This document shows positions 54,425 through 55,789 of a stretch of 64,000 nt of DNA, in pieces. The notes beneath the pieces were generated by a model, which was given only the letters and a program-made list of their open reading frames with translations, was not told the DNA's origin and did not search any database. The stretch comes from Novipirellula galeiformis. GTDB taxonomy: Bacteria > Planctomycetota > Planctomycetia > Pirellulales > Pirellulaceae. Position 1 is the first letter of the stretch, and every line of letters begins with the position of its first letter. The position numbers and the translations under genes are program-made. The stretch is taken from positions 62,001 to 126,000 of the forward strand of contig NZ_SJPT01000002.1 in assembly GCF_007860095.1 (NCBI RefSeq), given 5' to 3'.

Positions 54425-55789
54425 ATGGCTGCATTGGAGCATGTTAATAAAGGCGGACGCGACCACTACCGGTTGCGAATTCTTCTAGACAAACGCCGCA
54501 AGGCAATCGGATTGAGTGATCTTGATGAAGCGGGGGCGACCGAGGCCAAGCGGCACGTTGAGCATTTGGTGCTACAACGCAAACGGCAACGATCACCGCT
54601 GGGGCCTGCTCTCGATTGGCTAGAGTCGATCGATACCGACATTCATGATCGCCTTTCGAAGTTGGGGTTATGCGAAGCACGGCAACGATCCGAGCTGCCT
54701 CGCGACATGCTTGGCTACATGCGGGCTTACGTTAAAAGCCGGACGGACTGGAAGAAACCGGAGAACTACAAACAGTCGGTTGACCACCTTGAGACGTTCT
54801 TGAAGCGTGACATTCCGTTGGCGGCCATGACCAAGGGCGAGGCGGAGCGATGGCATCGGTGGATGATGGACGCCGAGAATGGCCCAGGCTTGTCGCCTAA
54901 TACGGCTGGCCAACACATCAAGCGATGCCGGCAGATGACGAAGCAAGCGATTGACGATCGTTTGATTGAATCGAACCCGTTCAAGGGGATAAAGATCGAC
55001 CTGCGGAGCGACACATCAAAGAATCGGTTCATCGATGAGATTTCCGCCGTAGCAATCTTGGAAGCTTGCCCTGATCAGGAATGGAGAACGCTCTACGCGC
55101 TAGCCCGATACGGTGGACTCCGCTGTCCGTCCGAGGTGCTGCGATTGCGATGGAGCGACATTCAATGGGACCGCGGCCGGTTCAAAGTGACGGCCCCCAA
55201 AACCGAGCGATATGGGAAGGGGCAACGCATCGTGCCCTTATGGCCTGAACTGCTGGCGGAGCTTGAAGATCTAGCAACTATTGCTCAGCCAGGCATCAAC
55301 TGTGCGGTAGATGCCTATGTGATCCAGCGTTACAGAGATTCCGAATCCAACCTACGGACGACGTTCAACAAGATTGTTGAGCGGGCTGGCGTTGCCGTGT
55401 TCCCCAAGCCGTTTATGGCGCTGCGGGCCAGTCGCCGAACCGAGCTCGAACGAACCGGGCGGTTTGCGAACCATGTGCTAAATGATTGGTTTGGGCACTC
55501 TGGGGCGATCGCCGAGACGCACTACCTCCAGACGACTGAGGCGGACTATGCAGAGGCAACAGGCTTGGAGCGTCCAACGCCCTTAGCGATCCCAGCGAAA
55601 ACTCAAGGACCGCCCCCGCCCGAGGAGCAATCTGGTTCGGAGGGGCAACGTGAGGGACAATCCCGAGGGCAGCAGGAATCCCCTACGCCGATCAAGACAC
55701 AAAAAAAGCCCGGCAAAACCGGGCGTTTGATCGGTGCTTATGGTTGTAGAAGCACGCAAGAATACACCCCAGAGGATTCGAACCTCTAA
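54425..55789 (+). CDS. int: tyrosine recombinase/integrase of the tRNA-Arg element
   Basis: The 454-aa protein has an N-terminal SAM-like core-binding domain (about residues 90-185) and a catalytic domain. LARYGGLRCPSEVLRLRW carries the first Arg, the beta-hairpin APKTERYGKGQRIVPLW the Lys, and ALRASRRTELERTG the second Arg. Usual HxxR is RxxR here. NDWFGHSGAIAETHYLQ carries the nucleophile Tyr. The gene reads into the tRNA-Arg gene and ends in it (EYTPEDSNL, stop at 55,787-55,789). Its 3' part also encodes, on the other strand, the terminator for the tRNA. The frame is open across the att core, see the orphan segment at 32,782-32,988. Confidence 0.92.
   Translation: MAALEHVNKGGRDHYRLRILLDKRRKAIGLSDLDEAGATEAKRHVEHLVLQRKRQRSPLGPALDWLESIDTDIHDRLSKLGLCEARQRSELPRDMLGYMRAYVKSRTDWKKPENYKQSVDHLETFLKRDIPLAAMTKGEAERWHRWMMDAENGPGLSPNTAGQHIKRCRQMTKQAIDDRLIESNPFKGIKIDLRSDTSKNRFIDEISAVAILEACPDQEWRTLYALARYGGLRCPSEVLRLRWSDIQWDRGRFKVTAPKTERYGKGQRIVPLWPELLAELEDLATIAQPGINCAVDAYVIQRYRDSESNLRTTFNKIVERAGVAVFPKPFMALRASRRTELERTGRFANHVLNDWFGHSGAIAETHYLQTTEADYAEATGLERPTPLAIPAKTQGPPPPEEQSGSEGQREGQSRGQQESPTPIKTQKKPGKTGRLIGAYGCRSTQEYTPEDSNL
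55701..55724 (-). terminator. element-borne terminator for tRNA-Arg
   Basis: On the minus strand GCCCGG-TTTTG-CCGGGC is followed by seven Ts, 39 bases beyond the tRNA 3' end. It lies inside the integrase coding sequence and replaces the chromosomal terminator now at 32,739-32,770. Confidence 0.8.
55763..55776. other. attR: 14-bp core repeat within tRNA-Arg
   Basis: TACACCCCAGAGGA, identical to 32,782-32,795. It is at once the tRNA 3' end (minus strand) and codons for YTPE(D) in the integrase (plus strand). Confidence 0.85.

Follow-up and report, generated by a model that had tools for sequence, protein, structure and literature searches.

Does integration into a tRNA gene change the end of the enzyme that carries it out? 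This question is raised by a stretch of 64,000 nucleotides of Novipirellula galeiformis DNA (contig NZ_SJPT01000002.1, positions 62,001-126,000, forward strand), called the window below. An integrated element occupies positions 32,782-55,776 of the window. Its integrase gene, int (54,425-55,789, plus strand), encodes 454 amino acids in the integrated form and ends with EYTPEDSNL within a tRNA-Arg(ACG) gene. The comparisons described here make it very probable that this is a tRNA-targeting integrative element with its whole attP inside a tyrosine integrase gene, the circle encoding a full-length enzyme and the integrated copy a shorter one. Judged from sequence, it is well supported that integration would exchange a conserved C-terminal end for a tRNA-antisense peptide.

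The target gene, tRNA-Arg(ACG), lies at 55,763-55,836 on the minus strand, and its 3' end is restored by the element. The attachment (att) core on this side (55,763-55,776) is both the 3' end of the tRNA gene and codons 447-451 of int. Just two copies of the 14-bp core, TACACCCCAGAGGA, are present in the window; the other is a direct repeat at the far end (32,782-32,795), 22,981 bp away from core start to core start. In a same-genus genome (G002, locus L192), the tRNA-Arg(ACG) site is empty. Both ends of the element are right, because the joined flanks of the window align to this empty site unbroken (query 853-1,442 against L192 9,915-10,517, 78%). The repeat of the tRNA 3' end at the far end, together with the empty site, identifies a tRNA-targeting integrative element. 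The 454-residue Int contains Phage_int_SAM_5 and Phage_integrase domains (Pfam Phage_integrase, 1.4e-8). R233, K259, R334 and Y367, which we take to be the catalytic residues, are invariant across 16 relatives, and the catalytic domain is that of a tyrosine integrase.

Past the left core, the register of int stays open for 63 more codons, up to a TGA at 32,986-32,988. This detached C-terminal tail of int (32,782-32,988, plus strand) comprises 68 amino acids including the core codons and carries the conserved motif ETLAIMKSMDIGTQADLLAVARGL. Joined through the core, int and tail give a reading of 514 amino acids. Since the int coding sequence runs as far as the core and the tail follows in register behind the far core, the enzyme would have 514 amino acids in the circle and 454 when integrated. 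The coordinates given in the initial annotation, from the core codons and the 63-codon frame with its TGA to the 514-residue reading and the EYTPEDSNL end, were all reproduced. Taken alone in the window, the open frame is weak evidence: a frame as long as the tail arose in 6.9% of local-DNA shuffles and at 22.9% of random window starts. It is significant because comparative data on related elements support the tail.

Int protein matches were found in 113 of 147 related genomes. When the tail alone was used as the query, G087 gave a copy of 58% identity (E 2.4e-13). Weak matches in G038, G056, G008 and G002 (E 0.006 to 0.95) were located 10-17 kb upstream of int on the same strand. This position upstream of int in relatives led us to suspect a family trait. 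The 58% identical copy itself (L045, G087:C1:3366411-3366629) has neither int nor a tRNA gene within its 10 kb stretch.

The survey comprised 93 regions, namely stretches of relatives fetched in three rounds plus the window, with 61 regions in the first set and then 32 from outside the order. Only an exact repeat of at least 12 nt of the tRNA 3' end was counted as a second core. Of the first 61 regions, 4 lacked int, having been chosen for a tail match; 6 had no nearby tRNA gene, 20 had no second core and 31 had one, which int reached in 29 of the 31. Among the 32 regions outside the order, 7 lacked a tRNA gene, 13 lacked a second core and 12 had one, and int reached it in all 12. Overall, a second core was present in 43 of 93 regions and int reached it in 41 of the 43. 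Beyond the far core, an in-register open tail of at least 45 codons was found in 38 of these 41 elements, compared with 7 in the +1 frame and 8 in the +2 frame. By set, such tails were found in 12/12 discovery elements, 15/17 held-out elements and 11/12 elements outside the order. Six of the discovery elements (L044, L046-L049 and L053) had been picked by tail match, while the held-out and outside sets were picked by int match only. The register of int is not imposed by the tRNA sequence, because the codon phase relative to the tRNA end differs among elements (the tRNA-end base falls at int codon phase 0, 1 and 2 in 19, 7 and 3 of 29 elements).

The tail is also conserved as a protein, with a motif of roughly LLxIWxSLDxxxRxDLLAVARGL. 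A profile built from the 12 discovery tails matched 14 of the 17 held-out elements in register at E<=1, 7 of them at E<=0.01; in the other frames, it matched 2/85 at E<=1 and none at E<=0.01. With a profile of 24 tails, 10 of the 12 elements outside the order were matched in register at E<=1, again with 7 at E<=0.01, compared with 7/60 and 0 in the other frames. When both tests are pooled, 14/29 tails held out from the profiles were recognised in register at E<=0.01 versus 0/145 in other frames. Matches to the tail profile at E<=0.05 were present in 105 of 144 relatives' genomes, where about 7 are expected by chance. The nonsynonymous rate (dN) was lower than the synonymous rate (dS) in 9/9 sufficiently similar tail pairs, which are not independent, as one tail occurs in five of them. 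Outside the order, the tails of L233, L236, L241, L243 and L245 end in a shorter variant, for example LSPAQAAVVAWLVSTPEG, and possibly represent a subfamily.

A search for integrases of about 510 amino acids with the tail had been proposed in the initial annotation. Such genes, of 491-507 codons, were found in viral contigs. Among 70 viral-contig loci, the tail profile matched 8. In L105, L108, L109, L116, L117 and L131, the tail is in one open reading frame (ORF) with int. These six loci represent four distinct undivided genes, since the proteins of L108 and L109 are identical, as are those of L116 and L117. All four genes have identical or near-identical paired repeats of 20-22 nt that flank a T-arm-like core inside the coding sequence, and at the L105 joint 13 nt are common to the end of tRNA-Glu(CTC). 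L160 has its tail match elsewhere. A further joint was seen in a planctomycete tandem array at tRNA-Glu(TTC) (L077/L197, G097:C21), where a remnant of int runs in frame into the tail of the neighbouring element. In the plasmid and phage collections, which were searched for free forms, 8 plasmid records and 1 phage record gave only distant integrases (E<=1e-5). At E<=10, there were 225 phage records, and none of the 40 matches listed covers 80% of the query. The C-terminal swap that the initial annotation had claimed for one locus is thus supported by elements from many genomes, inserted at many different tRNA genes, and by the undivided viral genes.

Several observations weigh against this interpretation. 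Of the 70 viral-contig loci, 62 had no match to the tail profile. The joint that the initial annotation had named as contradicting the swap, an integrase without the left-end peptide, was seen in a minority only: L195 (G033:C13, a 12,046-bp contig) has int and tail joined at the core out of register, L196 (G055:C14) has int and then the core with no tail motif behind it, and viral contig L123 has the tail beside int in another frame. In the survey, int does not reach the core in L085 and L098, and 33 of the 93 regions have int and a tRNA gene with no second core within the stretch examined. The in-register tails of L087, L101 and L225 are short, and that of L044 is frame-shifted, though it was counted as open. 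For the arm repeats described below, 5 of the 12 elements outside the order reach p<0.05 when compared with the cross-pairs of their own set, which often share one unit.

The DNA on either side of the core contains what are probably paired arm-type sites. In the window, one pair (55,640-55,662, plus strand, GAGGGGCAACGTGAGGGACAATC) has a 12-bp period and is located 100 nt before the core, inside int, and the other (32,845-32,867, plus strand, GAGGGGCAATGGGAGGGGCAATC) is located 49 nt after the core, inside the tail; both would be bound by Int. When the DNA before and behind the core was compared in direct orientation, 26 of 29 elements lay above the 95% level defined by 250 cross-paired arms. 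Inverted repeats were also considered and reached that level in only 5/29, so the direct orientation is preferred. In the full set of 41 elements, measured against 348 mixed pairs, 32 were above the 95% level and 21 above the 99% level. A period of 12 was seen for the shared segment in 31 of the 32, and the median distance of the repeats is 109.5 nt before the core and 43 nt behind it (41 elements). Because 12 bases equal four codons, the DNA repeats are translated into repeated residues, for example EGQxEGQ, before and behind the core. Putative arm-type sites thus flank the core in the window and in 32/41 elements, as for the heterobivalent, lambda-like integrases, and the N-terminal domain of Int probably binds these 12-bp-period repeats.

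The initial annotation had also coupled the swap to a terminator for the tRNA gene. In the window, the terminator is real. A replacement terminator lies inside the int coding sequence (55,701-55,724, minus strand), and the native one has been displaced to the far side of the element (32,739-32,774, minus strand). We conclude that the native terminator was displaced and the element supplied its own because the tRNA gene at the empty L192 site has a terminator of the 32,739-32,774 type behind it. A terminator-like site was found in only 13 of 29 related elements, compared with 5 of 290 control stretches. It is therefore frequent in the family and not a general trait.

A structure model of the undivided L105 protein (495 amino acids, mean predicted local distance difference test score (pLDDT) 80.4) has an N-terminal domain of three strands plus a helix, a core-binding domain and a catalytic domain. 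The pLDDT falls below 50 at residues 377-458 and is about 70-83 in two helices at 457-471 and 477-493. The L105 arm repeats (nucleotides 1,112 and 1,341 of the coding sequence) and the core (nucleotide 1,273) correspond to codons 371-454, nearly all in the disordered stretch. The closest solved folds are those of the Tn1549 (6en2, E 1.2e-11) and lambda (1z1b, E 3.9e-11) integrases. The model supports the view that attP would be encoded in a disordered linker and that the tail would form a helical hairpin. The conserved tail hairpin, the arm-type repeats and the family-wide spread are additions to what the initial annotation had described.

Could the tail be something other than a part of Int? 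The frame behind the far core might be open by chance, and for the window alone the probability of such a frame is 7-23%. Against this speak the survey results, the controls in the other frames and the held-out profile, and the last two rule it out for the family, which the window alone does not; we give this explanation next to no weight. It is very unlikely that the tail is an independent small gene, translated from a start codon of its own and in the register of int by accident. Possible internal starts are present in some tail frames, but the tail register follows int in 38/41 elements while all three codon phases relative to the tRNA are represented among the int genes, and undivided int-plus-tail genes exist. 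A passive tail, with the frame open only so that the right attP arm can adjoin the core and the peptide idle, is also unlikely. The arm repeats do fall in the first part of the tail, and the tails of L087, L101 and L225 are short or diverged, but DNA sites by themselves would not require an open frame. The conserved motif behind the arm repeats argues for a working peptide, as it is recognised in held-out elements, has dN<dS in 9/9 pairs and is modelled as a hairpin.

If the tail is a working part of Int, its loss could affect the enzyme in more than one way. By analogy with Mx8, the swap may set the direction of the reaction. The hairpin could provide protein contacts that are needed for integration or favour it. 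In what we take to be the likely mechanism, the long form would be proficient for integration, and the short form left by loss of the hairpin would suit excision in the presence of an excisionase. The enzyme itself would thereby carry a record of the element's state, as in phage Mx8. It is conceivable, if rather doubtful, that the tail instead alters stability, target specificity or strength and not direction, in which case integration would turn Int down or broaden it. After integration, Mx8 has a less active enzyme (PMC4701971) or one of changed specificity (PMC6070905) according to passages of two reviews. When the tails were inspected by eye, no ending evidently like a degradation tag was seen.

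The swap of a conserved C-terminal end, which remains our preferred interpretation, has parallels in known systems. The initial annotation had named Mx8 and SSV, and these parallels are correct according to passages of reviews (PMC4701971, PMC6070905, PMC8371274, PMC4383910). In Mx8, attP is inside the integrase gene and integration replaces 112 C-terminal residues by 13, as stated in part of a review (PMC4701971). The family described here has the same arrangement by sequence, with attP inside a tyrosine integrase gene and a C-terminus that would be exchanged on integration, and the Mx8 protein has a tRNA-antisense-like TGLEPV ahead of its end. In contrast, the sequences are only distantly related (A2 profile 17.0 bits, hhalign probability 68%), and Mx8 is one phage while the planctomycete type is a family in many genomes. 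Homology between the Mx8 end and the tail was considered and is unsupported (tail profile 4.0 bits for the whole protein and -0.6 bits for the last 112 residues).

The suicidal integrases of archaea (SSV1, pTN3, pT26-2) also have an att site in the integrase gene, which is divided by integration, but there the division falls between the N-terminal and the catalytic part and reportedly leaves both halves inactive, as described in sections of PMC8371274, where these enzymes are called exclusively archaeal. The planctomycete Int keeps a complete catalytic domain in the integrated gene and loses the tail alone, so it does not have the suicidal type of split. In Streptococcus, integrative and conjugative elements in rumA have an att site within the integrase gene and an excised form with a different C-terminus (PMC4701971, in part), but the enzyme is a serine integrase and the target is a protein gene. 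Some integrases extend across attP according to part of the Islander paper (PMC4383910). The lambda and Tn1549 integrases have the nearest folds, with three N-terminal strands plus a helix, and arm-type sites that the repeats on either side of the core resemble. The planctomycete family differs from them in having the arm-like repeats and core inside int and an extra C-terminal hairpin after a disordered linker. Searches of an open-access library, from which most subscription papers are absent, gave no report of the planctomycete family.

Accessory proteins are the usual explanation for how an integrase chooses between integration and excision. In the large family described here, which extends over genomes of several planctomycete classes or families and also includes viral contigs, the integrase itself appears to encode the element's state. 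Our fullest reading, offered tentatively, is that of a widespread bacterial family in which the entire attP (paired arm sites, the tRNA-derived core and, in part of the family, a tRNA terminator) would be coded in a disordered linker followed by an integration-specific hairpin. This hairpin would be lost at every integration and regained at every excision, and the enzyme sequence would act as a memory of state that gives direction without a regulator. Long and short versions of the enzyme occur naturally as many pairs, at various tRNA genes, and are material to test such state encoding. In an integrated copy, part of the protein is encoded out of sight at the opposite end of the element. Annotation of such integrases stops in a tRNA-antisense peptide that has no meaning, and the conserved domain is overlooked. 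In addition, the arm repeats differ between elements and match within each, and together they form a data set from which the DNA specificity of the N-terminal domain could be studied.

Among the other genes of the element, one encodes an HTH_17 protein (51,227-51,517, plus strand; Pfam HTH_17, 4e-8) that is a candidate excisionase, and 23 of 41 elements have a relative of it between their cores. A DnaB-like replicative helicase is encoded directly upstream of int (52,570-54,036). Defence-like cargo is present at 35,856-46,861, where type I restriction genes encode two HsdM, one HsdS and one HsdR. Between HsdS and HsdR are a PRTase-CE/wHTH protein (41,119-42,714) and a reverse transcriptase (42,715-43,902). 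The restriction genes adjoin a gene for an FRG-domain protein (46,895-47,941); these assignments and that of the helicase are from Pfam. In other regions, L196 has two different tails near the two ends of its contig, and a Rhodopirellula baltica record (L219) has a truncated int next to which two tRNA-Arg(ACG) genes of the same strand are separated by about 7 kb.
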